Assembly (NCBI RefSeq): GCF_003148665.1 | Contig: NZ_QGGQ01000010.1 | Span: 1-64,000 of the forward strand | Direction of reading: 5' to 3' | Length of the DNA stretch: 64,000 nucleotides | Source of the DNA: Maribacter polysiphoniae | GTDB taxonomy: Bacteria > Bacteroidota > Bacteroidia > Flavobacteriales > Flavobacteriaceae | Shown here: positions 20,273-46,014 of the stretch, piece by piece | Position numbering within the stretch: position 1 is the stretch's first letter | Layout of the letters: every line of letters begins with the position of its first letter | The notes under the pieces: generated by a model | Database searches by the model: none | Told to the model about the DNA's origin: nothing | The model's input: only the letters and a program-made list of their open reading frames with translations | Program-made: the position numbers and the translations under genes

Positions 20273-20338
20273 AAGTTCAAATAAACGCGGGTTTAAATGA
20301 ACTAGTTCAATTAAGTGAAAGTAGTTTTATTTGAACTT
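20273..20338. repeat. long inverted repeat with nested palindrome
   Basis: Arms AAGTTCAAATAAA (20273-20285) and TTTATTTGAACTT (20326-20338) are a perfect 13-bp inverted repeat around 40 bases that contain a second palindrome TGAACTAGTTCA (20298-20309). The left arm is the same motif that separates the small genes at 42.1-44.75 kb. It follows the 231-aa gene by 125 bases. The rest of 20146-20470 holds no gene. Confidence 0.7.
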
Positions 20339-26580: not shown

Positions 26581-27243
26581 ATGCTATTTGGTTACGTTAG
26601 GGTCAGTACAAAGACCCAAAATCCCAGTTTACAGATCGACGCCCTATTAAAAGAAGGGGTTAAGGAGAAGAACATCTTTAGGGATGTTTCTTCAGGGGCT
26701 AAGGCCGAACGCCACGATCTGGACTTGATGATATCAAGACTTCGAGAAGGAGACACGGTAATCGTTTGGAAATTGGACCGTATCGCCAGGAGTATTTCCC
26801 ACCTTTTAAAATTGGTAGATCAATTTGAAAAACTTGGGGTAAAATTCAAAAGTATCAATGACCCATTTATAGATACCACGTCTGCCCACGGTAAATTTAT
26901 TATTACCCTTTTCGGCGCCGTGGCCCAATTGGAACGTGATATCATAATCGAGCGCACCACTGCCGGTCTAAAAAGTGCCAGGCGCAGGGGCGTTCAATTG
27001 GGCCGTAAAAAAGGTTTGGGAAAAGAGGCCAAGCAAAAAGCCATGCTGGCCGCAGCCTATTATAGGGAAAACAAACTTCCCATAGTGGATATCATGAAAT
27101 TGGTGGGGATAAAATCAAAACCTACATTATATAAATACTTGGCCATACAAGGTCGAAGAAACTGCAAGGAGTGTGGTGCGGTTTTTTGGGATGAGACCCA
27201 AGAGATAGATGAGGCGTTTTGTAAAAAACATTACAAAAAATGA
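26581..27243 (+). CDS. serine recombinase (resolvase/invertase family) with C-terminal cysteine-rich tail
   Basis: 220 residues. Catalytic domain: YVRVST with the nucleophile S9, then RLREGDTVIVWKLDRIARS (catalytic KLDRIAR), TSAHGKFIITLFGAVAQLERD and the long E helix ERTTAGLKSARRRGVQLGRKKG. A helix-turn-helix follows (about 160-190, PIVDIMKLVGIKSKPTLYKYL). The last 25 residues are unusual for this size class: CKECGAVFWDETQEIDEAFCKKH, with four possible metal ligands (C-x2-C...C-x2-H). The start codon directly follows a 14-base palindrome. It may rearrange the repeat-bounded cargo at 16-26.6 kb, or be a plain resolvase left from another element. Confidence 0.9.
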   Translation: MLFGYVRVSTKTQNPSLQIDALLKEGVKEKNIFRDVSSGAKAERHDLDLMISRLREGDTVIVWKLDRIARSISHLLKLVDQFEKLGVKFKSINDPFIDTTSAHGKFIITLFGAVAQLERDIIIERTTAGLKSARRRGVQLGRKKGLGKEAKQKAMLAAAYYRENKLPIVDIMKLVGIKSKPTLYKYLAIQGRRNCKECGAVFWDETQEIDEAFCKKHYKK

Positions 27244-27405
27244 ACATTTCGTTTTCCATTACGCTTTTCTGTAAGGGTATTTCTTATTAAATCCTTTAAT
27301 TTGATTATAATATTTGAAGATTGATTTAGTACCGTTTTCAAATTTGGTTTGTTAAATTTGGTTGTTATAATGACCCCCCTTTTAAAACTCTAGTACATAT
27401 TGCAT

Positions 27406-28992
27406 ATGGCAAAAGCAGATATTGATTTTGAAAAAGAACTATGGGATGCCGCCAACGAACTTCGCGGTGCGGTTTCCGAGAATAATTATAAGAATTATAT
27501 TTTACCTCTGGTCTTTTTAAAACACCTCAGTGAACGATTTGATATCGTTAAAGAGGAACTTGAAAACACCTTAAACGAACCAAGTTCTACCTATTACACC
27601 ACGAATGAGGCGGAAAAGGAATATGTATTGACCGATCCGGACGAATATCGTTCACGTAATACGTTTATGATACCGAAAACTGCCTCTTGGCAGTATTTAA
27701 AGGATAACGCGGAGCAAGACGATATTAAGGTAAAGGTAGATGATGCCTTTGATGTACTTCAAGATCTGCTTACCGCCTATAATCCCCAGTTAAATAATCT
27801 TTTGCCCAGGATTTTTGTAAAGAGTGAACTCTCCGCCAAACAAACGGGTGGTATCATCAACCTGCTCTCCCATCCCAAATTCTCGGAAAAGGAAAACCCG
27901 GAGAGCGACATCCTGGGTCGTATCTATGAATACTATATTGGCCGTTTTGCCATGGCGGAAGGTTCCGGTGCGGGGCAATTCTTTACACCGGGAAGCATTG
28001 TACGCCTTTTGGTGGAACTATTGGAACCTTACAAAGGAAGAATCTTTGACCCTGCCTGTGGTAGCGGTGGTATGTTCGTACAGTCATTGAAATTTATTAA
28101 GGAACACGGTGGCAACAAGAGCGACATCTCTATTTACGGTCAAGAAATGACAGCCCAAACCTTGCGTTTATGCTTAATGAACCTACTGTTAAGAGACCTT
28201 TCCTTTGATATTAAACTCGGCAATTCTTTGTTGGATGATAAGTTCCCAGAGTTAAAAGCTGATTTTGTTATTGCCAACCCACCTTTTAATGTCAGCAATT
28301 GGCACCCTGAAGATTTACCGGAAAACGACCCCAGGCTTTTTGGCCCAAGGGAAGAGTTCACTACCGATGGCAGCGCCAATTATATGTGGATGCAAACCTT
28401 CTGGAACCACCTTAGCGATACGGGTACGGCGGGTATTGTAATGGCCAACGGTGCCATGACCTCTAATACCAAAGGAGAGAAGAACGTTCGGCAGTATATG
28501 GTAGATAAGAGTATGATCGATTGTATCGTTCGTATGCCGGATAAGCTATTTTTGACCACAGGCATTCCTGCCTGTTTGTTTATTCTGAGTAAAAACCGTG
28601 ACGGTAAAGATGGTGAGCACCGTGAGCGTATGAATGAAATTCTCTTTTTGGATGCTGCCAAAATGGGCACCATGGCAAGCCGAAAATTACGTGTCTTTAC
28701 CGATGGGGATATCAATAAGATTTCCGATACGTACCACGCTTGGCGTACGGTAGGTAAAACTTACGAAGATGTGGACGGCTTTTGTAAAGCGGCCACTTTA
28801 GAGGAAGTACAAAAGCAGGATTATAAACTTACTCCCGGCATTTATGTGGGCACGGAGGCCGAGGAAGATGATGGCATTCCCTTTGAAGAAAAAATGGAGA
28901 GTTTAAAGGCTACTTTGTTGGAGCAGTTTGAAAAAGGGGATAGTTTAAAACAGCAGATTTTAATGAACTTAGATAAAATAGATTCCAAGTGA
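27406..28992 (+). CDS. hsdM: type I restriction-modification DNA adenine methyltransferase subunit
   Basis: 528 residues from the ATG at 27406; a TTG two codons earlier is less likely. N-terminal HsdM_N region (DFEKELWDAANELRGAVSENNYKNYILPLVFLKHLSERFD). AdoMet site FDPACGSGGMFV (about 215-226) and catalytic NPPF (about 289-292, IANPPFNVSNW), as in N6-adenine methylases. With HsdS it would methylate the recognition site and with HsdR restrict unmodified DNA. It is the first gene of a four-gene operon and its stop overlaps the start of the KAP gene (GTGA). Base composition is GC-richer than that gene. Confidence 0.93.
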   Translation: MAKADIDFEKELWDAANELRGAVSENNYKNYILPLVFLKHLSERFDIVKEELENTLNEPSSTYYTTNEAEKEYVLTDPDEYRSRNTFMIPKTASWQYLKDNAEQDDIKVKVDDAFDVLQDLLTAYNPQLNNLLPRIFVKSELSAKQTGGIINLLSHPKFSEKENPESDILGRIYEYYIGRFAMAEGSGAGQFFTPGSIVRLLVELLEPYKGRIFDPACGSGGMFVQSLKFIKEHGGNKSDISIYGQEMTAQTLRLCLMNLLLRDLSFDIKLGNSLLDDKFPELKADFVIANPPFNVSNWHPEDLPENDPRLFGPREEFTTDGSANYMWMQTFWNHLSDTGTAGIVMANGAMTSNTKGEKNVRQYMVDKSMIDCIVRMPDKLFLTTGIPACLFILSKNRDGKDGEHRERMNEILFLDAAKMGTMASRKLRVFTDGDINKISDTYHAWRTVGKTYEDVDGFCKAATLEEVQKQDYKLTPGIYVGTEAEEDDGIPFEEKMESLKATLLEQFEKGDSLKQQILMNLDKIDSK

Positions 28993-31900
28993 GTTTTAGT
29001 TCACATATAACAAATAGTATAAATCAAGTTCTGAACTTTATTTGGAATTCGATAATTCTAAAAACTGGTCGAACGGTTTCAGAATGGCCCATCCTTAAAC
29101 CAACGGTACTCTTTTCATCACTTTTACTATTTCATGTTTTTTTTGATAAGATTAAAGTACTTATTGAAAACAACCTATTTATTTCCTCAAGTTTTTCCAA
29201 CATATGGCTCGATATTACAGTAATAGCCGCAACTGTTTTTGTAATACTTTTTTTTGGTATCCGTTTTTGGTATACAAGATATAAACCAAGCTTTTCGAGC
29301 TTTTTTCTTGTTTTTTTACTGTCTTATACAAGTAGCTTTATCTTTTGGAATTCTGACTTATTGGGTTGGCAATTTTATAAAGAGTGTATCTTTCAACTTC
29401 CTTACGTATTTTATTATTTAGTACCCGGTTCTCTTTTTATATTATATGCTTTAATCACTGGAATTATTTCCTTGTTTCCTAGGGAGAAATTATATCGTAG
29501 TCAATTTTCTAACGACGAACCAATAGGCAAAAGAGATGATGATAAACTAGATTATGAAGTTTATGTAGATAATTTATCTAAAATATTACTTCATGAAAGC
29601 TTTCCAAAGGCTTTTTCAGTAGGCTTGGTTGGGCCTTGGGGTAACGGAAAATCAAGTGTCCTTGATTTAGTTAAAAATGAACTTGAATCTAATGAGGGTG
29701 ATAGAAGGAAAAATATTTTCATTCATTTCTTACCTTATCTGAATCACAATGAAGATGATATCATTAATGAATTTTTTCTTCTTCTTAGTAGCCAATTGTC
29801 AAAATTTGATGGTAAAATATCGAACCAAATTTTAAAATATTCTCAAAAACTAACCGATTTATATCAATCTAAAAATCTAGTCGATTTTGTAAGTAAGCCT
29901 CCTAATAATATTTATAATCAAGCGGCAAAGGAATTATATGAAGACATCGACAAAAGCCTTACCAGAATCAACAAAAAAATAATTGTCTTCATCGATGATT
30001 TAGATAGATTAAGTGGTGAAGAAATTATTCAAGTATTAAAACTTATACGTAACACTGCAAACTTCAATAACACCATTTTTGTAGTTGCGATGGATAAAGA
30101 CTATGTACTACAAAGATTAAAAAGTAGCAATCAAATTTTAAATTCCGCGTATTTAGAAAAATTTTTTCAATTAGAAATTTATCTCCCAGAAATTGATGGT
30201 AACGTGCTTAGGGAAAGTTTTCTTAAAAGTTTCGATAACTATTCAAATCAGGGTATATCAAATTTTAATGATGATATTAAAACCGCATTGCTTGATAGAG
30301 ACATTTTATTTGATGATTATGTAAAGAATCTTCGAGATGTCAAGAGGTATTCAAACCAAATAAAATTCGATTATCCATTTATTAAAAACGAAATTGATAT
30401 GGTAGATTTTATCAATTTTACTTTTTTAAAAACTAGATTTCCTAGTATAGTTAATCAGTTATACAAGGATAAATCAAATTTGCTTCGGTACGACGATGCG
30501 AAAGACATCTACCATATAGAAGACCTACCTGAAGATCAACAGGCAGATGAAGGTGTGTCCATACCTTTTGATTTAGATGGTATTTTTGATAATTTCCTTT
30601 CTACTTCTAGGACTATTGACACCAAAGATTTAAAAGAATTTAAAAAGTATAAGATTTTTAACAATATTATCAAAGACCAAAGGTCTTTTGAAAACAGCCA
30701 TAAAATTGATTGTGATGATTTGTATTTACTATTAAAAACGCTGTACACCTTATTTGGAAAAAAAGATGTTAAAAGTTCAGGATCTATTCAACTGAGTGAT
30801 AATTTAAATATTCTTTTCTATAGAAAAATTCAGACACATAATTTTACCAAAAATGATTTTAAAGAGCTTTTAGATTTCGAAAATCAAGAAAAATTGAAAG
30901 CAATTGTGTTCAATTTGGATTCCGATAAGAAATTACCCCAATTTCTTAAAAAATTAAAATGGTTTAAACCAGTTGATATAAATCAATTGAAAAAGATAAT
31001 TCAAGTTTTACTTCATCTTTATCAAGTTAAAAATGACTACCAACTAAATAGAATTGAAATTGAAAAAAGGCTTGCAATTTATGTACAAGAACTTTTAACA
31101 GAAAAATATGGAAATCCCGAAGAAAACTCGTCATGGCTATGGGAGAAGATTTTTGAAGGGAAATATTTAACCCTAAAAAACAAGATTTACCTTTTAGGTG
31201 ATTTATGGCAAGCTAAAAATGAAAATTTACTATGGGGGTTTAGTGAACAGAAGGTTTCAGACAAAGCTATTGAACTATTTAAAGATCAGTTTGATAATAT
31301 AGAAGATACTCCATGGGAAGTCTCTAATTTTCATTATTATTCGTTCTACCACTCATTAAAAAAAATAAGAAATATTCAGTCAAAACTAAACGATTTGTTC
31401 AAGGACTTCTGGAATAAAAGAGATATTGAATTGCTCTGTGCCCAAACCATTGACCTACCTGCTTTTTCTTACTCGGTTTATCAATTATCAGACATTATTA
31501 TTGAAATTTTTGGTTCAAAAAACAAATACGTTGAGTTCATTAAATCACACCCCGATGCAACCAAAAAAGAAATTAAAGAGTATATAGAATTCCTAATCTT
31601 GCTACAAAAAACTGAGTTTAAAATTGCTATCGATTTCAAATTTAAAGAATCGAAGCTCATAAAGAAGCGGATAAAGCTATTGATTGAGGCCTATAAAAAG
31701 AATACTTCTTATGACGAAATCGGAAATATCAAACAAGTGATTTTTGAAACTAATGATATGGATTTCTTTTATAAAATAAGAGCGCAGCAGGAGTTTGTCA
31801 CAAAACATCATATTCAAGTTTATCCTCATTCTGATTATGTTGTTGCTAGAATCAATATAATGAGCAACAATGCTAAATCTGATTTATTAAGTATTGCCCA

Positions 31901-32051
31901 GTATATCAATAAAATTGGCGCAGATTATACAGGTTGGAAACATAATAGTTTAGATAAAACCAAATTAGATGAAAATGAGTCATTTTTGACTCATACTAAT
32001 GACCCGCAAAAATACATTAAGATTATTCATCCTAAACCTTTAAAATTCTAA
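28989..32051 (+). CDS. KAP-family P-loop NTPase embedded in the type I RM operon
   Basis: 1020 residues from a GTG that overlaps the hsdM stop. Four predicted membrane helices near the N-terminus (about 35-55, 70-95, 103-120, 135-160), then the NTPase: Walker A GPWGNGKSS (about 213-221) and Walker B IIVFIDDLDRLSGEE (about 330-344), with ANFNNTIFVVAMDKDYVLQRL after it, the KAP pattern. The C-terminal 550 residues are helical, AT-rich and unassigned. KAP NTPases are linked to membrane-associated complexes and several are found in phage defence loci. Being translationally coupled to hsdM and abutting hsdS it probably acts with the RM system, but it is no standard subunit. Confidence 0.85.
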   Translation: MSFSSHITNSINQVLNFIWNSIILKTGRTVSEWPILKPTVLFSSLLLFHVFFDKIKVLIENNLFISSSFSNIWLDITVIAATVFVILFFGIRFWYTRYKPSFSSFFLVFLLSYTSSFIFWNSDLLGWQFYKECIFQLPYVFYYLVPGSLFILYALITGIISLFPREKLYRSQFSNDEPIGKRDDDKLDYEVYVDNLSKILLHESFPKAFSVGLVGPWGNGKSSVLDLVKNELESNEGDRRKNIFIHFLPYLNHNEDDIINEFFLLLSSQLSKFDGKISNQILKYSQKLTDLYQSKNLVDFVSKPPNNIYNQAAKELYEDIDKSLTRINKKIIVFIDDLDRLSGEEIIQVLKLIRNTANFNNTIFVVAMDKDYVLQRLKSSNQILNSAYLEKFFQLEIYLPEIDGNVLRESFLKSFDNYSNQGISNFNDDIKTALLDRDILFDDYVKNLRDVKRYSNQIKFDYPFIKNEIDMVDFINFTFLKTRFPSIVNQLYKDKSNLLRYDDAKDIYHIEDLPEDQQADEGVSIPFDLDGIFDNFLSTSRTIDTKDLKEFKKYKIFNNIIKDQRSFENSHKIDCDDLYLLLKTLYTLFGKKDVKSSGSIQLSDNLNILFYRKIQTHNFTKNDFKELLDFENQEKLKAIVFNLDSDKKLPQFLKKLKWFKPVDINQLKKIIQVLLHLYQVKNDYQLNRIEIEKRLAIYVQELLTEKYGNPEENSSWLWEKIFEGKYLTLKNKIYLLGDLWQAKNENLLWGFSEQKVSDKAIELFKDQFDNIEDTPWEVSNFHYYSFYHSLKKIRNIQSKLNDLFKDFWNKRDIELLCAQTIDLPAFSYSVYQLSDIIIEIFGSKNKYVEFIKSHPDATKKEIKEYIEFLILLQKTEFKIAIDFKFKESKLIKKRIKLLIEAYKKNTSYDEIGNIKQVIFETNDMDFFYKIRAQQEFVTKHHIQVYPHSDYVVARINIMSNNAKSDLLSIAQYINKIGADYTGWKHNSLDKTKLDENESFLTHTNDPQKYIKIIHPKPLKF

Positions 32052-33245
32052 ATGCGCGAAAACTGGAAAACATATAAGCTCTCTGAAATCACTTCAAAAA
32101 TTGGAAGCGGTGCTACACCACGAGGAGGCAAAGGAGCATACAAAGATTCTGGCATTTCACTAATTCGAAGTCAAAATGTACTTGATTTTACATTTTCAAC
32201 TAACGGTCTTGCTTTTATAGATGAAAAACAAGCAGCTAAACTCAAGAATGTAGAGGTTGAATCAAAAGATGTTCTTTTAAATATTACGGGAGACTCAGTT
32301 GCTAGAGTTTGTCAAATTCCTGATCAATTCTTTCCTGCAAGAGTAAATCAGCATGTTGCGATTATTAGAGCAGACAATAAAATACTTGACCCTGATTTTC
32401 TCAAGTATTCTTTACTTACTTACCAGAACAAAAACGAATTACTAAATCTCTCAAGTGCTGGTGCAACCAGAAAGGCAATAACAAAGTCAATGATTGAAGA
32501 CTTTGAAATCAAAATCCCAGAAATCACCGAACAACGCGCCATCGCCAGCATCCTCTCTGCTATCGACGACAAAATAGAGAACAACCTCGCCATGAACAAA
32601 ACCCTCGAAGACATGGCCATGGCACTCTATAAACATTGGTTTGTAGATTTTGGCCCCTTCAAAGACGGCAAGTTTATCGACTCGGAATTGGGCAAGATTC
32701 CTGAGGGTTGGGAGGTGATAAAACTAGAAGATCTAGTTGAAATTAAGTATGGTAAAGATCATAAAAAACTTAATGACGGATCTATTCCTGTCTTCGGTTC
32801 TGGAGGTATTATGCGATACGTGGATACTCATCTTTATGACAAAGAATCCGTACTCGTTCCCCGAAAAGGATCTCTCAATAATATCTTCCTGGTCAGTCAA
32901 CCTTTTTGGTCGGTTGATACAATGTTCTACACCAAAATGAAACATGACAATTCATTAAAATATGTATATCATCTATTGAAAGGAATGAAACTTGGAGATA
33001 TGGATGTGGGATCTGCAATTCCTAGCCTTACGACTAAGCTTCTTAATTCTCTTGAAGTTATTCTTCCTTCGAGCCAAGTACTTTCTAAATATGAGGAAAA
33101 CACAACTCGGTTGTATGAGCAGATTTGGGCAAATGAAAATGAAAACAAAACCCTAACCCAACTCCGAGACACCCTGCTCCCCAAACTTATTTCAGGGGAA
33201 GTCCGCCTAAAGGAATTTGAAGAAAAAATAACTGCAGTCTTATGA
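32052..33245 (+). CDS. hsdS: type I restriction-modification specificity subunit
   Basis: 397 residues, beginning directly after the KAP stop codon. Two target-recognition domains (about 5-150 and 215-360), each followed by a conserved helical spacer: ITEQRAIASILSAIDDKIENN...MAMALYKHWFVDFGPF (about 160-210) and ENKTLTQLRDTLLPKLISGEVRL (about 362-390). TRD1 starts WKTYKLSEITSKIGSGATPRGG and TRD2 starts GKIPEGWEVIKLEDLVEIKYGK. The recognition domains are AT-rich and the spacers GC-rich, a visible mosaic typical of TRD exchange. The target sequence cannot be predicted here. Confidence 0.93.
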   Translation: MRENWKTYKLSEITSKIGSGATPRGGKGAYKDSGISLIRSQNVLDFTFSTNGLAFIDEKQAAKLKNVEVESKDVLLNITGDSVARVCQIPDQFFPARVNQHVAIIRADNKILDPDFLKYSLLTYQNKNELLNLSSAGATRKAITKSMIEDFEIKIPEITEQRAIASILSAIDDKIENNLAMNKTLEDMAMALYKHWFVDFGPFKDGKFIDSELGKIPEGWEVIKLEDLVEIKYGKDHKKLNDGSIPVFGSGGIMRYVDTHLYDKESVLVPRKGSLNNIFLVSQPFWSVDTMFYTKMKHDNSLKYVYHLLKGMKLGDMDVGSAIPSLTTKLLNSLEVILPSSQVLSKYEENTTRLYEQIWANENENKTLTQLRDTLLPKLISGEVRLKEFEEKITAVL

Positions 33246-36241
33246 GCCTAAACGAACATACCGCCCAAAATGCGGCCATTGCTTGGCTAAAAGAACTGGG
33301 TTATACCCATATACCCGGCAATGCCTTGGACCGCGACCTTAAAAAAGTAGTATTGGAAACGGAGTTCAACAACTTTTTAAAAACCACCTACCCAGAGGTG
33401 CCCGAAACGGCACGTAATGAGGCCTTTGCCCAATTTACCCAACATGAGGGTATGGAGGTGGCCTACCGCAACCGTGATTTTCACCGTAAACTCACCCAAG
33501 GTATGGCCATCGCCTGGAAAGATGCCCAAGGCAATGAAAAAGCAAAGCATCTGTATCCCATAGATTACGCCCATCCTCAAAACAATAGTTTTATCGTAGC
33601 TGACGAAGTCAGTATCGTAGGCAAAAACAGTCGCCGTACCGACCTGCTTATTTTCATCAATGGGCTTCCTTTAGTGGTATTTGAATTTAAAAATCCCTTC
33701 GATTCCACCGTAGGTGTCGAAAATGCCCACCGGCAAATCCATAACTACGTACTGGATATTCCGCAGTTGTTCGATTACAACGCTATTTGCGTGGCATCCG
33801 ATGGCTTAGAGGCCTTGCACGGTATGTATTCTTCTTCCTTGGAATGGTTCGCGCCATGGAAAAGTTTGGATGGGGAGGACACCGAGCAAAAAGCAGAGCT
33901 GCAATTGGAGGTACTTTTACAGGGACTATTCCCTAAAGAGACGCTAGTGGATTATTTGCAGCATTTCATTTTTCACGAAGACCACAACGGTAAGATCATA
34001 AAAAAGGGGGCCAAGTACCACCAGTATTGGGGCATCAGCCGCGCAGTCGAAAGCAGCCTAAAGAATATAAAACCAAACGGGGATGGACGTTTGGGCGTTA
34101 TTTGGCATACACAGGGTTCGGGCAAGAGTATCAGCATGGCCATTTTAACCGGTATTCTACGCCAACGCCCGGAACTGAAGAACCCTACCATCGTGGTACA
34201 GGTAGACCGTTCCGATCTGGACGAACAATTATATGACAATTTCCTACTCGCCAAAGATCTGGTAGGCGATGTACAGCATGCCAAAAGCACGGACGACCTT
34301 AGGCGTTTATTGAGCTCCTATGGCGGTGGTGTCATTTTCACCACCATAGAGAAATTCAGGTTGAAAGAGCTAACGGACGGAAAAGAAGTGCAGCACCCCG
34401 TTTTGAGTGAACGTTTCAATCTTATCGTCATGGCCGATGAGGCACACCGCACCCAGTACGGTTTTAAAAGTGGCGGTTTTGCGCAGAACATTCGACGGGC
34501 GCTGCCCAATGCCTCATTCATAGGCTTTACCGGTACGCCCGTAGATAGTGCAGCTGCCGATACCGAACAGGTATTTGGTACCACCATTCACACCTACGAT
34601 ATAAAACAGGCCGTAAAAGACGGAGCTACGGTACCCATTTACTACGAACCCAAAATGGTACCACTCAACATAAAAGCGCAATACACCCAAGAACTCGAAG
34701 AAGTAGAAGAACAGGCAGAAGATACCACGGTAGGGGTTTGGGCAGCGGTAGAAGATGCAGCAGGTGCCGAGGATCGGGTAAAGACCGTTGCAAAAGATAT
34801 TTTAGAGCATTTTAACGCACGTACTGCAACGTTGGATGGCAAGGCTATGGTGGTCTGTATGAGTCGCCGTAATTGCGTAAAAATGTACGATGCATTGACC
34901 GCCTTGGAAGGTTGCCCTGAAATTGCCGTGATCATGACGAGCAACCCAGGTAAAGACCCCTTGAGCTGGAATCCCCACATGCGCACCAAAGATGCCATGG
35001 AAGCGGTAAAGACAAGATTCAAGAATCCGGAAGACCCCCTTAAAATGGTCATTGTACGTGATATGTGGCTTACCGGTTTCGATGCACCTTGCGCACATAC
35101 CATGTATGTGGACAAGATTATGAAAGGCCATAATTTAATGCAGGCCATTGCCCGTGTCAATCGGGTTTTTGAAGGTAAACCTAACGGCTTGGTGGTCGAT
35201 TTTATCGGTATCTCAGGTTTTCTTGCCGAAGCCACCAAAAAATATACCGGTAGCGGTGGTGCCGGCAAACCTACCTTAGATCTAGATGCGGCGGTAGAAT
35301 TGTGTTTAGAGCAATTGAGTATTGTTAAGTCCTTAATGGGAGGGTTTGAATTGGATGCAATAGATAATATGCCTGCCACGGAGAAAATGAAGTGGACAAC
35401 AGATATCCTAAATGGGTTGTTAAAAGACGATGCCACGACAGAAGGTTATCTCAAGGAAGAACGAAAGTTGAGCGAATTGATGGCCATGACCAATTCCGAT
35501 GAACGGATTTGGGCGATTCAGGAAGAAGTGGCCATTGTTCAAAAATTCAGGGAACAGATACGAAAGATAAAATATCCACCAGGAGCGCAACGTACGAAAA
35601 ACGACCGTATAAAGGACCTTATCAGCAAGTCATTGGAATCACAGGCAATTGTGGACCTAGCGGCCATGTACAATCTGGATAAAATAGATATATCCATTGT
35701 AGATGATTCCTTCCAGGCCATCGTAAAGGACAAAGGGGAGGAAAATATTAAAATTGAGCTCCTACGTCGCATTATCAATGATGAGTTGAAAGTCCATATG
35801 AGCAAGAACATCAAGAAAGGACGTAAGCTCAAGGAAGAACTTGAAAAGGTATTGGGCAAGTACCATAAAAACAGTCTGAACTCCATTGCCGCGATAAAAC
35901 ACTTATTGGATATTGCCACTGAGATGAGAGAAGAGGATAAACGTACCAAAGAATTAGGCCTTTCCGCAGATGAGCTCGCTTTTTACGATTTGCTTTCTGA
36001 AAATGCGGCCATTCTCAACCAAGCCGGACCTATCCAGGATTTGGTACATACCGTAGTGGCATCCGTTAAGAAAAACCTGCAATTGGACTGGACCAAAAAA
36101 GAAAACGCCAAAGCGGCCATACGTTTGGCCGTTAAAAAAGAACTAAGGGGAAAAGTACCGTTCTCAGCATTGGACAATCTCCTTAAAGAAGTTATAGAAC
36201 AGGCCGAAGGGCAGTATAGTGAGTGGCCCATTGTGGGGTAA
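33242..36241 (+). CDS. hsdR: type I restriction endonuclease subunit R
   Basis: 999 residues, near the usual length. PD-(D/E)xK nuclease core RRTDLLIFINGLPLVVFEFKNP (about 134-155), Walker A HTQGSGKSISMAIL (about 289-302), DEAH box ADEAHRTQYG (about 398-407), and motif III-VI segments (FIGFTGTPVD, MSRRNCVKMYDAL, DMWLTGFDAPCAHTMYVDK, AIARVNRVFEGKP). It translocates and cuts unmethylated DNA. The start overlaps hsdS (ATGA). No frameshift is seen, so the RM system appears intact. Confidence 0.94.
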   Translation: MSLNEHTAQNAAIAWLKELGYTHIPGNALDRDLKKVVLETEFNNFLKTTYPEVPETARNEAFAQFTQHEGMEVAYRNRDFHRKLTQGMAIAWKDAQGNEKAKHLYPIDYAHPQNNSFIVADEVSIVGKNSRRTDLLIFINGLPLVVFEFKNPFDSTVGVENAHRQIHNYVLDIPQLFDYNAICVASDGLEALHGMYSSSLEWFAPWKSLDGEDTEQKAELQLEVLLQGLFPKETLVDYLQHFIFHEDHNGKIIKKGAKYHQYWGISRAVESSLKNIKPNGDGRLGVIWHTQGSGKSISMAILTGILRQRPELKNPTIVVQVDRSDLDEQLYDNFLLAKDLVGDVQHAKSTDDLRRLLSSYGGGVIFTTIEKFRLKELTDGKEVQHPVLSERFNLIVMADEAHRTQYGFKSGGFAQNIRRALPNASFIGFTGTPVDSAAADTEQVFGTTIHTYDIKQAVKDGATVPIYYEPKMVPLNIKAQYTQELEEVEEQAEDTTVGVWAAVEDAAGAEDRVKTVAKDILEHFNARTATLDGKAMVVCMSRRNCVKMYDALTALEGCPEIAVIMTSNPGKDPLSWNPHMRTKDAMEAVKTRFKNPEDPLKMVIVRDMWLTGFDAPCAHTMYVDKIMKGHNLMQAIARVNRVFEGKPNGLVVDFIGISGFLAEATKKYTGSGGAGKPTLDLDAAVELCLEQLSIVKSLMGGFELDAIDNMPATEKMKWTTDILNGLLKDDATTEGYLKEERKLSELMAMTNSDERIWAIQEEVAIVQKFREQIRKIKYPPGAQRTKNDRIKDLISKSLESQAIVDLAAMYNLDKIDISIVDDSFQAIVKDKGEENIKIELLRRIINDELKVHMSKNIKKGRKLKEELEKVLGKYHKNSLNSIAAIKHLLDIATEMREEDKRTKELGLSADELAFYDLLSENAAILNQAGPIQDLVHTVVASVKKNLQLDWTKKENAKAAIRLAVKKELRGKVPFSALDNLLKEVIEQAEGQYSEWPIVG

Positions 36242-36484: not shown

Positions 36485-37330
36485 TTATTCCTTGCTCCAT
36501 TTCATATTCACGGCCCATTTCGTATGAATGCCAATATCATACTCCTGCGTTTTGGTACGGTTGTCGTGGCCCAAACATTGAATTAATTCAGCATCAGCCC
36601 ATTTATAGTATTTGGTATCTCCCTTTTCCTGTAACTTCTTTAATTCTTGTCTTTGTTCTGGAGTTGGAATAATATCTAAAATGTCATACTGTAAAATCTC
36701 ATAACAGTCCCAACCTGGAGTCCTTTTTATTGGGGTCGTGATCCTTCCTTTAAAATTGTAGTTAACATAGGGAAATTTTTCTTTGTTCAATAACTTGGCT
36801 TTACCCTCAATCAACTCCTCATAAAACTCTCGCCAATGACTAATTTCACGGTCTTCCCCTTTGTTAAACCAATCCAAGAAATTAATGGCCTTTCCTGCCG
36901 GAATGAACAACGCAAAATCATCTTTCATTAAATCCTTATTCGGGAGTTTGGGGTCGTCTATGGCATCGAATTGGTTTTGCAAAAATGATCTTGTACCTTC
37001 TAATACTTTATATTTTCCACCAACTAATTGATAATGTGGAAAGTTGTTGTTCTTGACTAAGAGGTATTTATCATCTACCTTTATTCGGTATAAGTAAGCC
37101 ATAGAAAATCTGATTCTTTGTCCTCGTAAACCCAACCATTTGCTATAAATGGTTAACCACAATCTTTTACGGTTAACAATAACTGTTTCAAGAAGTAACG
37201 CGATTAAGCCAAACAGCCCAATTAGTCCTGCCCCAACAAATTCAGGTTGCAGATCAGAACCCGACAAAAAGAAGTATCCATATACAAGAACTCCTGTAAA
37301 TAAAATTGCTTGAAGTATTTTTCTTATCAT
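36485..37330 (-). CDS. cap16: CBASS effector Cap16: two membrane helices plus SMODS-associated NUDIX domain
   Basis: 281 residues. Two N-terminal membrane helices (about 7-24 and 31-49: LQAILFTGVLVYGYFFLSG, EFVGAGLIGLFGLIALLLE), then a NUDIX-like domain with the degenerate box REFYEELIEGKAKLL (about 168-182) and the conserved start FSMAYLYRIKVDDKYLLVKN. This 2TM-NUDIX layout is the Cap16 effector type of CBASS, predicted to act on the inner membrane when bound by a cyclic oligonucleotide. It is the last gene of a four-gene operon and overlaps cap6 by 4 bases. Confidence 0.8.
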   Translation of the reverse strand: MIRKILQAILFTGVLVYGYFFLSGSDLQPEFVGAGLIGLFGLIALLLETVIVNRKRLWLTIYSKWLGLRGQRIRFSMAYLYRIKVDDKYLLVKNNNFPHYQLVGGKYKVLEGTRSFLQNQFDAIDDPKLPNKDLMKDDFALFIPAGKAINFLDWFNKGEDREISHWREFYEELIEGKAKLLNKEKFPYVNYNFKGRITTPIKRTPGWDCYEILQYDILDIIPTPEQRQELKKLQEKGDTKYYKWADAELIQCLGHDNRTKTQEYDIGIHTKWAVNMKWSKE

Positions 37331-38211
37331 TTTATCGCTGGGCTAGGTTTTATTGATTTGATGGTATCTTTCAATATCGAAAATGAAAGTGGGTGGTCAG
37401 GATAAGCATTGGCTATAGCTTCCGGCAAGACTTTTAAACGAATATCAGAAAATGAATATCCCAAATCCGATTCTCCATTCGCGACTGACATTAAGGCCAA
37501 TTCATCCAATTCTTTAGTGGAAAAATTTAGCCCCTCTAAACTCTGGGCATACAGCTCTTTACACTCTTCAATTGTTGGTCGCTCAAATTCCAGTATAACC
37601 GCCGCTCTACGAAGTATAGCCTCGTCTATGAAGTGTAATCTATTGGTGGACATAAATATAATGGCTCTGCCATTCAGCTCTCTAATTTCGTCAATTTTCT
37701 GTATCAAGGTGTTTACCGCCGCCTTTTCTTCTTGATGCATTTGGTTAGTTCCACGAGTGGTTGCAATGGCATCTGCCTCGTCAATTAATAAGAAAGCAAA
37801 ACGCCTTTTACCCGCTTGGGATTTTAACTCTGAAAAGGCATCATTTACCAATTTCCCCATCTCTCCGTGCAGGCCTTCACCTCTAACGCGAGTACTTAAC
37901 TTTAGAAAGAACCCCTCTTTTTTTAGCTCTCGGGTCATCCTGTCCGCAATGGAAACAGCAGAAATCGTTTTACCGGTTCCTGCGTCTCCCGCAAGTATAA
38001 TCAAAGGGTATTTCTCTTTTAACTGTTTTATTATGGGTAGTTCGGTCTTATGATGCTTTTTGCTCCACTCCGTAAGGCTGTCCTGGTCCAAAAGCAATTT
38101 AAGGTTATTATAAATGCGCTTAAACTTACTTTCAAAACCAACCAGAGATCGGGTTTGCATCTGAACCTCATTATTAGGAAGCTCAATCGTATTATCAAAT
38201 ATTGCAGCCAT
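37327..38211 (-). CDS. cap6: TRIP13-like AAA+ ATPase of type III CBASS (Cap6)
   Basis: 294 residues. Walker A GDAGTGKT (75-82), Walker B LLIDEADA (141-148), a sensor asparagine in IIFMSTNRLHFID, and arginines in ILRRAAVILEF. TRIP13/Pch2-like ATPases remodel HORMA proteins; in CBASS type III they take apart the HORMA-CD-NTase complex and keep the system off without phage. Gene order and overlaps (1 base with the HORMA gene, 4 with cap16) support this reading over a general AAA chaperone. Confidence 0.85.
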   Translation of the reverse strand: MAAIFDNTIELPNNEVQMQTRSLVGFESKFKRIYNNLKLLLDQDSLTEWSKKHHKTELPIIKQLKEKYPLIILAGDAGTGKTISAVSIADRMTRELKKEGFFLKLSTRVRGEGLHGEMGKLVNDAFSELKSQAGKRRFAFLLIDEADAIATTRGTNQMHQEEKAAVNTLIQKIDEIRELNGRAIIFMSTNRLHFIDEAILRRAAVILEFERPTIEECKELYAQSLEGLNFSTKELDELALMSVANGESDLGYSFSDIRLKVLPEAIANAYPDHPLSFSILKDTIKSIKPSPAIK

Positions 38212-38732
38212 TATTTATAATTTGTTTTTTGAAGTTCATATCCTTTACTTGCATATAATTGAGCATTGCTAGAGGTCAAATGCGAAAATGTAGTATCATC
38301 GGATGTTGTAGTCCATCCAATCTTGAAATCATTAGTAGTATAAAAGTCTTTTTTTTGTTGACTAGAAAGGCCATGCCATTTGGCAGTATAAGAGAGGTAT
38401 ACGGTTAAGTAAGTGTCGTCAATATTTTGCCAGTCATTATTACGGCCAGCTCTATCACTATCTGATTTGCCGCCTTCTTCATTAATCTTAAATTTTGCAG
38501 CTCTAATTGTATAATCATTTGACCTACGCTTAAGCGCAATTGATACCTTATCAAGGTATTTATTCTCCGCAAGCTTTATGATGTCATGAATTACTTTATC
38601 CACGTAATCAGAAGACCATTTACCAGTTCTCCTAGCAATTGTGCGAATATCTGCTTCGCAGCTTTCAAAAGTTTTTCTGATATCTACTACCGTGTAGGTA
38701 TTGGTGTTTGTCTGTGTATTATACATAATCAA
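38211..38732 (-). CDS. cap7: HORMA-domain peptide sensor of type III CBASS (Cap7)
   Basis: 173 residues. Sequence alone is weakly distinctive: NTYTVVDIRKTFESCEADIRTIARRTGKW, WQNIDDTYLTVYLSYTAKWHGL, FKIGWTTTSDDTTFSHL. The size, central helix and long C-terminal region able to act as a safety belt fit bacterial HORMA proteins, and it sits exactly between the CD-NTase and TRIP13 genes as in known type III CBASS operons. It would bind a phage-derived peptide and activate the CD-NTase. Overlaps the CD-NTase gene by 4 bases. Confidence 0.7.
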   Translation of the reverse strand: MIMYNTQTNTNTYTVVDIRKTFESCEADIRTIARRTGKWSSDYVDKVIHDIIKLAENKYLDKVSIALKRRSNDYTIRAAKFKINEEGGKSDSDRAGRNNDWQNIDDTYLTVYLSYTAKWHGLSSQQKKDFYTTNDFKIGWTTTSDDTTFSHLTSSNAQLYASKGYELQKTNYK

Positions 38733-39709
38733 TTAAGGCTAAATGTTGGACCAAAAACACGCTTCCATTCTTCGGTGGTCGCGCCTTCATTATTTCTTGA
38801 TTGAGCAAGATTTAGAGAATCGAATGCGTCTTCGGCTTCATCGATAATCTCTTGCCATTTAGAAGTATTAATTTTCTTAGCGGAGTTATTTTCATTATTC
38901 GTATCATCAGCAATATAGATTGGAGTGCTATAATATGGAATACTGTTAATGGCGTGGTCGAATGAAATCTCCGGAAAACTTGACTCGCTCAAAAATTGAA
39001 AAAACCTTATTATGCCCTCTTCGATACCTGTTTCTACACCTCTGGTGGCATCTAAATAAGCTACGATCAATTCAATGGAAAATGAAGAGATACCGGGTTC
39101 ATCTTCATAAGGTTTTAGTTCTTTGTAATTCTTCCACCATTTTAATGCTCTCACAATAGAAGAGTAGGACGGATTATTGCGACGAAGGCTATTAGAAAAA
39201 TCAAGATGATTTTCTACACTGGTAATGTACTTACCACCACCACCTCTTTGTGGCTGCCAAACATATTTTTCCGGATTCTCAATGGGTACCACTGGGACTA
39301 TATCTACTTCCAATCCTGAACCGGAAAACCTGATTTTAATTGATTTGGTGTTTCCTTTGGCATCAACATCGCGCCTAATGTCCTTTTGAGGGTATATTTC
39401 TTTTAGATATCCTACGATAAAGTCGTGCAATTTTGACAAGTCATTCTGTATGTTATCATCGCCTGAAACATATAGGACTAAATCAATATCTATGGGATTA
39501 TCCCCTGTTGGGCGAAGAATTGTATGTTTTTTCCAAGACCCGGCTAATAGGAACTTTGTAACCTTCAATCCGTTGCTATCGTCATTTTGAATTTTATCCT
39601 CTAATTTTTTCTTCAGGTTGTTAATCTGGTCTCTGTATTTGCCCATATTGTCCTTATGCAACTTTATTTTATCAATAAAAGGACGAAGACTGTTGTTATC
39701 TAATTTCAT
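38729..39709 (-). CDS. cdnC: CD-NTase (SMODS nucleotidyltransferase) of type III CBASS
   Basis: 326 residues. Nucleotidyltransferase core: LLAGSWKKHT (GS at 57-58) followed by DID at 74-76 and a third acidic residue in GLEVDIVPVVP (D136), all intact. FSIELIVAYLD and the helical C-terminal part match SMODS enzymes. On phage infection it would make a cyclic di- or trinucleotide that triggers Cap16. It is the first gene of the operon. The clade letter C is inferred from the HORMA/TRIP13 partners and is less certain than the family. Confidence 0.85.
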   Translation of the reverse strand: MKLDNNSLRPFIDKIKLHKDNMGKYRDQINNLKKKLEDKIQNDDSNGLKVTKFLLAGSWKKHTILRPTGDNPIDIDLVLYVSGDDNIQNDLSKLHDFIVGYLKEIYPQKDIRRDVDAKGNTKSIKIRFSGSGLEVDIVPVVPIENPEKYVWQPQRGGGGKYITSVENHLDFSNSLRRNNPSYSSIVRALKWWKNYKELKPYEDEPGISSFSIELIVAYLDATRGVETGIEEGIIRFFQFLSESSFPEISFDHAINSIPYYSTPIYIADDTNNENNSAKKINTSKWQEIIDEAEDAFDSLNLAQSRNNEGATTEEWKRVFGPTFSLN

Positions 39710-40177: not shown

Positions 40178-40321
40178 AATATTAATTTTTAAGTTTGTAG
40201 GGATTTTCTTTATATTTGAACCACCCCAAGAATTATTTAATAGCATTTACTGTTTATACAGTGGTTTTATGAGTGCCACTCACTCATATACCTTAATAGA
40301 TATATCCGTTTTGGTATATAG

Positions 40322-42111: not shown

Positions 42112-42135
42112 TATATAGTTGAAATAAAGGATTGT

Positions 42136-42573
42136 ATGAGTAATAAGTCAATACAGAAAATTAGGGAGCAAAGAATTGAGATGAATTCTCAAATCGATAA
42201 ACTTTATAACTCCGTTAAATCTTTAAGTACTAGTAGAGAAAAGGCAATACAAATATTAGAAAGATTTGAGGATATTGATTCAAAGAAAAAAGATAAGCTA
42301 CAAGAAGAACTTAAAACTCGAAGGCTAGTTCATTCATTGGATAGGAATATCGAAGATGCAGAAAGGGCTTTAGCTAATGCTGTTTCAGAGAGATTTAGTT
42401 TAAATACAGATTTTCTAAGCGTTCAGTTACTGGAGTTAAGCATTCGACTTCAAGAACAAACCAAGGCAAGCAAAAAAGCTTCAAAACGACAAAGAAAGCT
42501 TACTTGGGCGATTGTAATAATTGGCGTTTCTAGTTTACTAGTGACCATATCTCAATTATTTGAATGGATTTAA
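42136..42573 (+). CDS. coiled-coil protein with one C-terminal membrane helix
   Basis: 145 residues. Long helical coil (about 10-115, KIREQRIEMNSQIDKLYNSVKSL..., SLDRNIEDAERALANAVSERF) then a membrane helix at about 124-140 (TWAIVIIGVSSLLVTI). It would be anchored in a membrane with the coil in the cytoplasm, as in some defence and signalling proteins. First unit of the motif-separated array. The stop codon is joined directly to a motif copy. Confidence 0.65.
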   Translation: MSNKSIQKIREQRIEMNSQIDKLYNSVKSLSTSREKAIQILERFEDIDSKKKDKLQEELKTRRLVHSLDRNIEDAERALANAVSERFSLNTDFLSVQLLELSIRLQEQTKASKKASKRQRKLTWAIVIIGVSSLLVTISQLFEWI

Positions 42574-42588
42574 AAGTTCAAATAAAGG

Positions 42589-42750
42589 ATGGATAGAAAG
42601 GATTTTAAAAATCAAAGTTTTAAAGAAAAAGTTCAAAATATATTTGCTCTTATAATTTTGATAGTCATAGTTCTTTTTATCATTAGCCAATGCGGAGGAG
42701 GAAATTCATCCTATAAATCTTCTACAAGAGGATTGATGATAAGCCAATGA
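42589..42750 (+). CDS. 53-aa membrane peptide
   Basis: From the ATG at 42589, placed inside the end of a motif copy. Charged N-terminus (MDRKDFKNQSFKEKVQ), one hydrophobic helix (LIILIVIVLFII) and then SQCGGGNSSYKSS. Small and unknown, but in the same place and orientation as its neighbours, which supports it as a real unit. Confidence 0.5.
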   Translation: MDRKDFKNQSFKEKVQNIFALIILIVIVLFIISQCGGGNSSYKSSTRGLMISQ

Positions 42751-42806
42751 AAAGATTATCGAAATCTAGAATCATAAAAGCCTTAATAAACCATAAACTT
42801 TAATCT

Positions 42807-42914
42807 ATGGCATTACTAACCAAACTTGACTGGTTATTTGTTGGAGGTATAATAATCGGGCTAATAGTTTTGTATCTGGTGTTTATAAATCCAAACAATT
42901 GGGATGATGATTAA
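42807..42914 (+). CDS. 35-aa membrane peptide
   Basis: MALLTKLDWLFVGGIIIGLI then VLYLVFINPNNWDDD: one hydrophobic helix and an acidic tail. No motif copy directly precedes it (the sequence AGCCTTAATAAACCATAAACTTT is at most a decayed one), and a diverged one follows at 42916. Confidence 0.4.
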   Translation: MALLTKLDWLFVGGIIIGLIVLYLVFINPNNWDDD

Positions 42915-42935
42915 TAAGTATAATTTAACGATTGA

Positions 42936-43178
42936 TTGGAAAAGATTAAAGACTTCGTAATACATGTTTTGGATGTATATCCCATTTACTCGGGTATCTT
43001 CATGATTGTGTGTGGGATATTAATTTTCAACTATCAATATAGCAAGAAAGAATCTTGCAAGATGAGCAAACATGGATTAGCATCTTGGAAAGCTTTTGTA
43101 AACACTTGGGCTATAGTAATAATGCTTCTTCTTTGGGGCTTGATACTAATAATTAGAAATATTAATAAGAGTCTATAA
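42936..43178 (+). CDS. two-helix small membrane protein
   Basis: 80 residues from a TTG start two bases after a diverged motif copy. Membrane helices at about 15-31 (YPIYSGIFMIVCGILIF) and 56-72 (WAIVIMLLLWGLILIIR), with a basic loop (YSKKESCKMSKHG). Unknown function. The next motif copy begins at its stop codon. Confidence 0.55.
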   Translation: MEKIKDFVIHVLDVYPIYSGIFMIVCGILIFNYQYSKKESCKMSKHGLASWKAFVNTWAIVIMLLLWGLILIIRNINKSL

Positions 43179-43227
43179 AGTTCAAATAAAGGATTAACCT
43201 TCTTAAACTGGATAAATAACCAAACCA

Positions 43228-43872
43228 TTGAAATCATCAGAATCACGAAAAATAGGGACAAACAAATATTTGGAGTCAAAAGGAATTCCGATTTGTGAAC
43301 ACCTACCTTTAGTTGCAAATAGTCAAGAAGTAATTCTGAGGAGGCCATCTGAAATTGCATCTAGGATTATGATATTAACTGGCATAATTGACACAGCTTT
43401 CGATGAAGACAGAAAAGAAATAGTAAGTTGGTTAAAGGAGATCAATCTATGGACAGGTGTCTCAAATTCCGAAAAGGAATACTTGAAAAAAAAGAGTTTA
43501 ACCAAAGAAGATAAAATCGCTGCGAGTTGGCGAACCGAAGCTGTAAACGTGCTTTTCTGGTCTCTTGGGATGGTTGACATACTTAATGAACCAATTGAAG
43601 AATGTAACTTAACTAAAGCACATGAAGGAACAAAAGGAAAATATGGTTCATTGAATAATTTCATTGGGCAATCCGAAATTCGGAGTACTGAGGAAATACT
43701 TGATCAAACCGACCTTATTTATCGAATTCTTTGGGCAATAAGGGATGCTAGATTAAATAATAGACCTTATCCTAATGGTTATAATCCCTCTATTGTTTAT
43801 GAAAGACATTATGCCCTGAATTGGATTACATGCTATCAAGAAGATTGGGATGATATAACAACAGATACCTAA
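43228..43872 (+). CDS. DUF4272-domain protein
   Basis: 214 residues from a TTG start. IPICEHLPLV...EVILRRPSEIASRIMILTGIIDTAFDE, SWRTEAVNVLFWSLGMV and DLIYRILWAIRDARLN...YERHYALNWITCY match the helical DUF4272 family, common in variable arrays and next to toxin immunity genes in Gram-negative bacteria. Biochemical role is unknown. It lies 31 bases after a motif copy. Confidence 0.75.
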   Translation: MKSSESRKIGTNKYLESKGIPICEHLPLVANSQEVILRRPSEIASRIMILTGIIDTAFDEDRKEIVSWLKEINLWTGVSNSEKEYLKKKSLTKEDKIAASWRTEAVNVLFWSLGMVDILNEPIEECNLTKAHEGTKGKYGSLNNFIGQSEIRSTEEILDQTDLIYRILWAIRDARLNNRPYPNGYNPSIVYERHYALNWITCYQEDWDDITTDT

Positions 43873-43920
43873 ATTACGTTTGTAAAAAGTTCAAAAAAAG
43901 GATACCCAAACAATTTTTTT

Positions 43921-44241
43921 ATGTCAAAAGATATTGATGTAGATATTTTACTCTTACTCCTTCTGCTAGGAGTGGGAATAATTCCTTGGCTAATTAAACG
44001 TTGGAGATTTAACCTAAAGAAAAAAAGTCGTCAAAACTATTATCGTAAAACCTATTTAAAATCAGCTGCATGGAAAAGAAAACGTTATGTCGTTCTAAAA
44101 CGAGATAATTGGAAATGTGTTTATTGCGGCAAAAGAGACACACAAGTTCATCATAAAAGGTACTCGAAGAAAAATATTGGCAAAGAACCTATTAAATGGT
44201 TGGTTTCAATTTGTAAGTCATGTCATGATGAATTGCATTAA
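43921..44241 (+). CDS. HNH endonuclease-like protein with N-terminal membrane helix
   Basis: 106 residues. One helix at about 8-25 (ILLLLLLLGVGIIPWLIKRW), then a compact HNH domain: VLKRDNWKCVYCGKRDTQVHHKRYSKKN, with WLVSICKSCHDELH as the second metal CxxC pair. Ligands C-x2-C...H-H...C-x2-C...H look complete. A membrane-tethered small HNH nuclease is an unusual combination; a defence or DNA-entry role can be imagined but is not shown. Confidence 0.75.
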   Translation: MSKDIDVDILLLLLLLGVGIIPWLIKRWRFNLKKKSRQNYYRKTYLKSAAWKRKRYVVLKRDNWKCVYCGKRDTQVHHKRYSKKNIGKEPIKWLVSICKSCHDELH

Positions 44242-44288
44242 GAAAGACTTAATTTGCCAGCGAAATAAAAGTTCAATAAAACGATTGC

Positions 44289-44708
44289 ATGAAAATTAAG
44301 CGTTATCAGATCTTTCTTGTCGTTCTACTTTTTTCATTGAATGGTTTATCTCAAACAAAAGACCATCTTAAGAAAGAGACAGCTATAAACCCCTTGCTTG
44401 GACAATGGGAAGCTTATAAGAAAACGGATTTGGATGGATGTGATGGAAGTGATGTAACTTTTAATGGTTTACCATATACAGTTAAATTAGAGTTGATTTT
44501 TTTAGATGGCGATAAATCCTTTTTTAATAATGGAGAGGGTAGGTTGGAGACAAGTTATACTCTAAAAGAAGATACACTGAAAGTTTCTCGTTTTACCTAT
44601 TCCATTATAAAAATCATAGGTTCAGAATTAGTATTAAAGGAGGAAAAGCTAATTGGCAAGCTTATTTATCTGAAAAAAGTAGGGGATTATCCTATAACAA
44701 AGAATTGA
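44289..44708 (+). CDS. secreted small beta-barrel (lipocalin-like) protein
   Basis: 139 residues. Signal peptide MKIKRYQIFLVVLLFSLNGLS, then LLGQWEAYKKTDLDG, FFNNGEGRLETSYTLKEDTLKVS and ELVLKEEKL, the G-x-W and beta-hairpin pattern of small lipocalin-like domains. Similar in layout to the Rhs-linked lipoprotein at 1446. Last complete unit of the array. Confidence 0.65.
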   Translation: MKIKRYQIFLVVLLFSLNGLSQTKDHLKKETAINPLLGQWEAYKKTDLDGCDGSDVTFNGLPYTVKLELIFLDGDKSFFNNGEGRLETSYTLKEDTLKVSRFTYSIIKIIGSELVLKEEKLIGKLIYLKKVGDYPITKN

Positions 44709-44741
44709 TTTAAAGTCTAAATAAACGATAGAATTTTAAGC

Positions 44742-44786
44742 ATGAAGGAAACAATTAAAAAGGCGCTTTTTCTTTTGGCAGTCTAG
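44742..44786 (+). pseudogene. truncated array unit at the junction with the transfer module
   Basis: MKETIKKALFLLAV then a stop: the start of a signal peptide that runs straight into the 3' end of the minus-strand lipoprotein gene at 44755. It is preceded at the proper distance by a motif copy (44713-44731). The unit seems cut when the array and the tra module were joined. Confidence 0.5.
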
Positions 44787-45120: not shown

Positions 45121-45126
45121 GATACT

Positions 45127-45984: not shown

Positions 45985-46014
45985 AATAGTAAATTTAAAA
46001 TGCCCACTTTAGGC

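Follow-up and report, generated by a model that had tools for sequence, protein, structure and literature searches.

Integrons are the textbook gene-collecting device of bacteria. Other recombination systems can be recognized by the form of their sites: in dif sites, a 6-bp centre lies between the XerC and XerD arms (11-6-11), the elements of the staphylococcal cassette chromosome (SCC) stand in tandem with end-to-end sites, and res sites are palindromic and lie upstream of the resolvase gene. The locus considered here is an array of small genes in Maribacter polysiphoniae (Flavobacteriaceae), at positions 42115-44729 of a 64,000-nucleotide stretch of contig NZ_QGGQ01000010.1 (assembly GCF_003148665.1), which is called the window below and is part of a 5.13 Mb genome. 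Copies of an 18-bp site lie there between small plus-strand genes. Such arrays are almost certainly composed of mobile gene cassettes, and a small serine recombinase encoded upstream, at 26581-27243, is probably the enzyme that moves them.

The 18-bp site and the cassettes between its copies

An earlier reading of the window (the original prediction) had proposed an integron-like array of plus-strand units separated by one motif of 18-20 bp. Six matches to this motif with up to three mismatches are found in the window, against 0.10 expected, and none of 100 shuffles reached six. All the small genes taken as units run on the plus strand (the list of open reading frames, or ORFs, also contains purely mechanical ones on the minus strand, which overlap them). 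A weight matrix places the array sites at 42115, 42573, 43177, 43886, 44268, and 44712, all on the plus strand. The motif length was corrected to 18 bp, with a choice at position 14: in 402 non-redundant sites from 88 loci, the consensus is A-AAGTTCAAATAAA-S-GAT, where S is C in 52% and G in 45% of the sites. This set excludes L032-L050, L108, L110, and L111, which overlap others, and loci with fewer than two same-strand sites. The information is confined to the 18 positions, and the flanks are flat, except for a weak preference in the next two bases.

The mobility of the units is supported by alignments between 156 loci, leaving out those shorter than 150 bp, below 70% identity, or at least 99.5% identical. 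Of 366 alignment ends, 66 fall at a site in both partners, where random sites gave 0.095 on average and never more than 1 over 200 trials; both ends fall at sites in 15 of the 183 alignments, against a mean of 0 at random placement. Twenty cassette pairs match at both ends, with 70-99% identity, and the sequences on either side of them differ (9-30 of 60 bases alike); one of these pairs lies within a single genome (G009), and one differs twofold in length. From both counts, L067, L146, L089, and L133 were left out as repeat genomes (presumed so for L133). A 1.56-kb cassette is 97% identical at two loci with different neighbours. The cassette-array reading of the original prediction is thus borne out: the same cassettes recur in changing company, and homology breaks off at the site. 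Unit order, which according to that prediction would have refuted the reading if fixed in all relatives, is not fixed.

The same boundary is seen where the array meets a conjugative element. The backbones of the window element and of two M. aquimaris elements have a common first base behind the last site (GAT-AGAATTTTAAG) and are preceded by different sequence; in a third M. aquimaris element, the backbone is the same and no site is recognisable at that point. An apparent insertion of three cassettes between two M. aquimaris elements was not used as proof, as the left flank in common covers only 135 aligned bases, with a recurrent tail at its end. Elsewhere in M. aquimaris (G005:C22, at 32936, 134372, and 181712), three copies of one conjugative-element gene are 83-97% identical to that of the window, and two of them directly adjoin a cassette site.

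The variable position 14 gives an indication of the crossover point. Among the ten pairs with at least 84% identity, 8 share this base at their right end and 2 share it at their left end (hand count). Over all 20 pairs, agreement is 13 at the right against 8 at the left (hand count, no significance test), a weaker signal, as expected for old pairs. Agreement at the right ends implies that the first 14 positions of the site travel with the left cassette, and that exchange takes place within GAT.

Cassette content was described in 365 units, a set which leaves out the short recombinase and tra loci, together with L067, L146, and L089. The longest ORF is on the site strand in 346 of them; the median unit measures 633 bp, the median ORF 158 aa, and the site-to-start distance has quartiles of 16, 43, and 101. 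In total, 319 cassette proteins have at least 80 aa. A random draw of 90 from those of 80-500 aa gave matches to 76 Pfam families, including ParE toxin, Fic, Abi_2, acetyltransferase, LGT, and AsnA (the 25 families shown are each matched by one or two proteins), and PADLOC matched 11 families in this draw, with one protein each.

Exact copies of AAGTTCAAATAAASGAT number 22 in the host genome, with none of the reversed control. Half of them (11) lie, all on one strand, on a 38-kb contig of this genome (C17), which carries 17 sites in an array, separated by small genes. The site also forms one-way arrays elsewhere. Seven of the 11 other genomes of the genus have it, in 4 to 18 copies each, and at the family level it is found in 20 out of 299 genomes (host included), with no exact copy in the other 279. 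This genome search, which the original prediction had called for, shows that the site is not a general promoter or ribosome-binding signal. In a scan of named genomes, 80 stretches were listed of at least 114; among the matches listed, multi-copy stretches belong to Maribacter, Allomuricauda/Muricauda/Flagellimonas, Aquimarina, Ulvibacterium, Pelagihabitans, and uncultured Flavobacteriaceae, and the single matches in Bacillus, Treponema, and others look like chance. Carriage by phages was considered and rejected: 16 viral contigs hold one exact 18-bp copy each and no array of them, and these copies are taken as chance or single transfers.

In the window, the first site (ATAGTTGAAATAAAGGAT, 42115..42132, plus strand like all array features below, matrix score 17.6) is followed by a cassette gene of 145 aa (42136..42573), for which only a TMEM120 Pfam match below the cut-off was obtained; its description as a coiled coil with a transmembrane segment is that of the original prediction. 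The second site (AAAGTTCAAATAAAGGAT, 42573..42590, score 29.9) precedes a small ORF of 53 aa (42589..42750), read from the sequence and without a Pfam match, and another of 35 aa (42807..42914), recognized by eye. A diverged copy (TAAGTATAATTTAACGAT, 42915..42932), absent from the matrix matches, is by eye a seventh copy of the site, and is followed by a cassette gene of 80 aa without a Pfam match (42936..43178). The next site is again AAAGTTCAAATAAAGGAT (43177..43194, score 29.9), followed by a DUF4272 cassette gene (43228..43872, Pfam 2.7e-57), the site AAAGTTCAAAAAAAGGAT (43886..43903, score 27.6), and a cassette gene with an HNH endonuclease domain (43921..44241, Pfam 1.2e-4, barely over the cut-off). 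The site AAAGTTCAATAAAACGAT (44268..44285, score 24.4) and a cassette gene of 139 aa without a Pfam match (44289..44708) lead to the last site (AAAGTCTAAATAAACGAT, 44712..44729, score 22.9), with the conjugative-element backbone directly 3' and the homology to the M. aquimaris elements beginning there; genes near this start of the conjugative element include TraN (match below the model's cut-off). Among the product labels of the original prediction, DUF4272 and HNH were confirmed by Pfam, and no Pfam match was obtained for lipocalin-like. An Rfam scan of positions 40000-46000 gave no match up to E=1.

Several short sequences recur inside the cassettes. A tail of the form GGACAC...CTCGG adjoins a site in 21 of its 55 copies, and the tail TCCTATGAAAAGC does so in 19 of 23; both stand 5' of the site (L001 16466-16340 on the minus strand, L016, L018, and others) and are perhaps terminators. 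A leader, CATACGAGCYGAACCGTT, is present 5' of some cassette genes in five copies at four loci (L001 at about 6790 and 3300 on the minus strand, L005, L016, and L017). In our view it resembles attC ends, and some of the genes that carry it may be former integron cassettes.

The serine recombinase and its upstream site

The proposed cassette recombinase (26581..27243, plus strand) is an intact protein of 220 aa of the Gin/gamma-delta type (Pfam Resolvase 1.9e-41), with a DNA invertase and gamma-delta resolvase as its closest solved relatives. Residues S9, R7, R67, and R70, which we take to be the catalytic residues of the Resolvase domain, are invariant in 14 aligned recombinases (aligned to Gin and gamma-delta). 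A C-terminal CxxC...CxxxH extension is found in six of these 14 and in none of the other eight.

The original prediction had pointed to a reverse copy of the motif near this gene, and one is present at 26476..26493 on the minus strand (AAAGTTCAATAAAACGAC, matrix score 18.2), about 88 bp before the start codon. It points away from the recombinase gene, is followed by an imperfect second half-site, and is the left end of the recombinase element. A second full palindromic site of the same type lies further upstream, at 26350..26379 (read from the sequence; its half-site matches). The arrangement is a common one: of the 36 recombinases with at least 50% identity, 26, that of the window among them, have AAAGTTCAATAAAACGGT or a close form on the opposite strand, 86-92 bp upstream of the start codon. 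Nine of the other ten have a weaker form at nearly the same distance, and L172 has none. No such site was found in the 12 recombinases below 50% identity, nor on the control strand. These counts leave out L256, which has too little upstream DNA, and a further 14 of the 63 recombinase loci, which were incomplete, broken, close to a contig end, or distant.

Homology between recombinase elements also ends at this upstream site. In 23 pairs (17 recombinases in five sets), 57-79 of 80 bases are alike inside; outside, only 17-38 of 80 are alike in 20 pairs, and the remaining three pairs share a target (50-63 of 80 alike). Six further pairs with L257, the register of which is shifted by one base, were set aside. 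An imperfect inverted second half upstream of several recombinases places the palindrome centre at positions 16-17, and the crossover interval deduced from the cassettes contains this centre. One half-site is thus common to the recombinase's own site, the boundary of its element, and the cassette sites.

The sites lie downstream of the recombinase and on its strand in 18 out of 21 mapped neighbourhoods (relatives with at least 50% identity, fragments included), 17 of these layouts being within one stretch and the eighteenth being that of C17, where the sites continue on the next stretch. Downstream sites on the opposite strand were found in none of the 21. The three exceptions are a remnant past an array in G153, a 38-aa fragment in G005, and G027, with a palindrome only, 2 kb upstream. 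One weaker same-strand upstream site occurs in two neighbourhoods (window 20272 and L195), and G007 is an extra case of the layout with a partial recombinase gene. The link between the array and the serine recombinase that the original prediction had hinted at is therefore supported by relatives that stand upstream of arrays, most of them with the same half-site beside the gene.

Co-occurrence in genomes points in the same direction. Using a recombinase limit of E up to 1e-30, 11 of the 299 family genomes have both the recombinase and the exact site, 6 the recombinase only, 9 the site only, and 273 neither (p 5e-11), so that the site is present in 11/17 genomes with the recombinase and 9/282 without it. 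Exact sites are present in 10 of 13 genomes with a recombinase of at least 50% identity (hand count). Conversely, a relative with 51% identity or more is present in 18 of 26 genomes chosen for their multiple sites, compared to 17 of the 299 family genomes at the same E limit (p 3e-14); 30 multi-site loci were submitted to this search, of which L057 was not searchable and L106 could not be placed.

More distant recombinases differ in their surroundings. Eight loci with 37-46% identity show no repeat of at least four copies, except AT-rich ones in L245, and several of them have a different palindrome, GTCCCGTAAAACG. One relative with 46% identity (L247) has cassette sites on both strands, on the upstream side of its gene. 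In a second clade (44-46% identical), the palindrome GTCCCGTAAAACG-GC-CGTTTTACGGGAC lies upstream of the gene (L242, L244, and L247). Sequences of this type also stand just outside several clade-A elements (window 26218-26345), a pattern that insertion of one type into the other would produce. In other families of the class, recombinases 46-53% identical come with no array of the site in the stretches read, with one weak match (score 9.3), and a plasmid search gave 3653 resolvase-type matches with less than 60% identity.

Two further observations concern the targets and joints of these elements. Five recombinase elements of two subtypes share one target, after TGCCTCGCTCAGTA...GGGGCTTGCAGCACTCCACTTCGTTGCGTTCGCC or a close form (L273, L259, L255, L278, and L275), and a tyrosine-integrase-like ORF, recognized by eye, precedes this target in three of the four elements examined. 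At L251 (12013-12046), a perfect palindrome with an AT centre, ATAGTTCATTTAAACGATCGTTTAAATGAACTAT, has the form expected of a head-to-head joint of two half-sites.

Around the recombinase, the window holds several other features. A type I restriction-modification system with a KAP ATPase (27400..36241, plus strand) is the first large module behind it, followed by a cyclic oligonucleotide-based anti-phage signalling system (CBASS) module with a 2TM effector, TRIP13, HORMA, and a cyclase (36485..39709, minus strand). The window cassettes adjoin these restriction and CBASS modules. On the other side, the inverted repeat announced by the original prediction is present at 20273..20338, as an inverted pair of site half-copies with 13 perfect bases per arm, flanking two imperfect palindromes. 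As a single strand, it has a folding z of -4.4, and it is possibly an old junction. Between this pair and the recombinase, a minus-strand ORF of 1542 aa (20984-25612) gave no Pfam or PADLOC match.

A recombination model and its alternatives

According to the favoured explanation, the array would be a run of mobile gene cassettes of about 0.6 kb, each usually with one gene and with the 18-bp site at its 3' end. The Gin-like small serine recombinase encoded upstream would bind a 14-16 bp half-site, AAAGTTCAAATAAA(S)G, make a double-strand cut at AT, the dinucleotide in the centre (positions 16-17), and rejoin two such sites. Recombination between two sites of one array would release the intervening DNA as a circle, which, once joined to a site in another array, would be inserted as a new cassette. 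The conserved half would then stay with the upstream cassette, and the other half would be the start of the next cassette or of the target. It is on sequence comparison that we infer exchange by this recombinase, the exact dinucleotide, the circle intermediate, and the tolerance of an unspecific second half.

Several points weigh against this explanation. Small serine recombinases normally require two half-sites, and array sites have one, as a second half-site is absent from them in all 30 registers checked. The site beside the recombinase has GT (25 of 26) where array sites have AT, and simple recombination between the two is thus not expected. Site quality does not decay along arrays (rho -0.02, n=104), so that the insertion end cannot be named. 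As the stretches were mostly fetched for having both recombinase and sites, the layout tests orientation and side, not proximity, and its rule is broken by L251 and by the fragments L187 and L199. A recombinase relative at the E limit used is missing from 8 of the 26 multi-site genomes; G010 has sites and no recombinase, and G153, with 35 sites (score of at least 12, in the stretches read), has no Resolvase match, its only trace being an 86-aa remnant past the end of the array, not before it. Loss of the recombinase after stocking, by analogy with clusters of attC sites lacking an integron integrase (CALINs), could explain these multi-site genomes and G153. The reverse case also exists, as recombinases with at least 50% identity stand without exact sites in G027, G302, and G217 (G302 has four near-matching ones).

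The most serious alternative is that another recombinase, such as a tyrosine recombinase encoded by the host or by an integrative and conjugative element (ICE), moves the cassettes, and that serine recombinase elements merely land at array sites. Tyrosine recombinases are indeed present in 10/10 genomes searched, and a Resolvase-family match in 0/6 site-bearing genomes searched (four of which have only 1-4 exact sites); moreover, an asymmetric exchange region would agree with sites that point one way even though their AT core is palindromic. However, the sites of tyrosine recombinases have paired arms, which the array site does not, and a crude motif search of L001-L031 and the window gave no tyrosine recombinase except the ICE integrase. 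The half-site is also shared with the recombinase's own upstream site at a fixed distance, and sites and recombinase strongly co-occur. This alternative is, therefore, considered improbable.

It is much less plausible that the units are dif modules driven by XerCD, as in Acinetobacter plasmids. Modules bounded by short sites and moved by XerCD have been described, but array sites have a single arm, and 279 of 299 relatives, nearly all of which should have XerCD, lack the site. Slightly further down the scale, and very doubtful, is a shared promoter, ribosome-binding, or terminator element, around which homologous recombination would make the array look modular. Several window sites do stand just 5' of start codons. 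Nevertheless, the site-to-start distance is variable, the exact copy is missing from those same 279 genomes, and breakpoints fall at an 18-bp match with different flanks, such a match being too short for routine homologous recombination.

The last alternative is that of ordinary integron cassettes, or CALIN arrays minus the integrase, with unusual attC sites. Small one-orientation genes, many of them without known function, and arrays without a recombinase would suit this origin, as would the folding of 120 sites, on average 0.9 kcal/mol better than mononucleotide shuffles (mean -5.4 vs -4.4 kcal/mol, a small excess that carries little weight). Five of ten genomes also have tyrosine recombinases matching the IntI model (110-129 bits in one piece, 84-91 in a second), the best match in the host genome reaching 74 bits in one piece. 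Yet, as the original prediction had stated, no IntI is near: none of the ten genomes exceeds the 265-bit cut-off of TIGR02249, a search without a positive control, since 14 control genomes also gave none. Its other statement, that the GTTRRRY boxes of attC are lacking, is upheld, as the base after GTT is a pyrimidine (C in 88%, T in 11% of the 402 sites). With no conserved partner to the 18-bp site, and four of the five window sites tried folding at the shuffle mean or above (z of -1.96, -0.08, 0.89, 0.36, and 0.12), this origin is the least credible of all and can practically be set aside.

Returning to the cassettes moved by a serine recombinase, we find it fairly likely that a small Gin-like system, acting through an asymmetric, one-armed 18-bp site on single-gene cassettes, constitutes a second, independently evolved integron-like platform for gene capture, through which hundreds of interchangeable genes, many of them without known function, reach the ICEs and genomic islands of marine flavobacteria. 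If this is true, cassette banking evolved more than once, by different chemistry and with a tiny site. It would also provide a rule by which captured mobile genes can be recognized in flavobacterial genomes, and raise a question of enzymology, that of a serine recombinase using a site with one specific half.

Comparison with known systems

No described counterpart was found in the literature searched, a search with preprints and most subscription journals outside its reach, so that absence in print is unproven. Gin/Hin invertases and Tn3-type resolvases belong to the same family of proteins and likewise have a palindromic site 5' of their gene, but they invert or resolve fixed segments; we know of no cassette arrays with half-sites among them, and none appeared in that search. 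The SCC of staphylococci (CcrAB/CcrC) also combines a serine recombinase with tandem elements. Ccr proteins are large, however, whereas the enzyme here is Gin-like, with 190-220 aa, and most units consist of one gene and have no recombinase of their own; against the CcrA/B/C models, the window recombinase scores 43-50 bits, far from their cut-offs of 700-900. The dif/pdif modules of Acinetobacter (XerCD) resemble the present cassettes as small gene modules bounded by short recombination sites, and differ from these one-way arrays with one conserved arm and no 11-6-11 site.

Integrons and CALINs have the same one-way arrays of small single genes, many of them of unknown function, a recombinase gene at one end, and, elsewhere, arrays without a recombinase. 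Here, the recombinase belongs to the serine and not the tyrosine type, the 18-bp site has no GTTRRRY/RYYYAAC boxes, the recombinase reads towards the array instead of away from it, and nothing points to a single insertion end. As in integrons, these arrays nevertheless consist of mobile cassettes, each with one gene and one site: the system works like an integron, and is not one.

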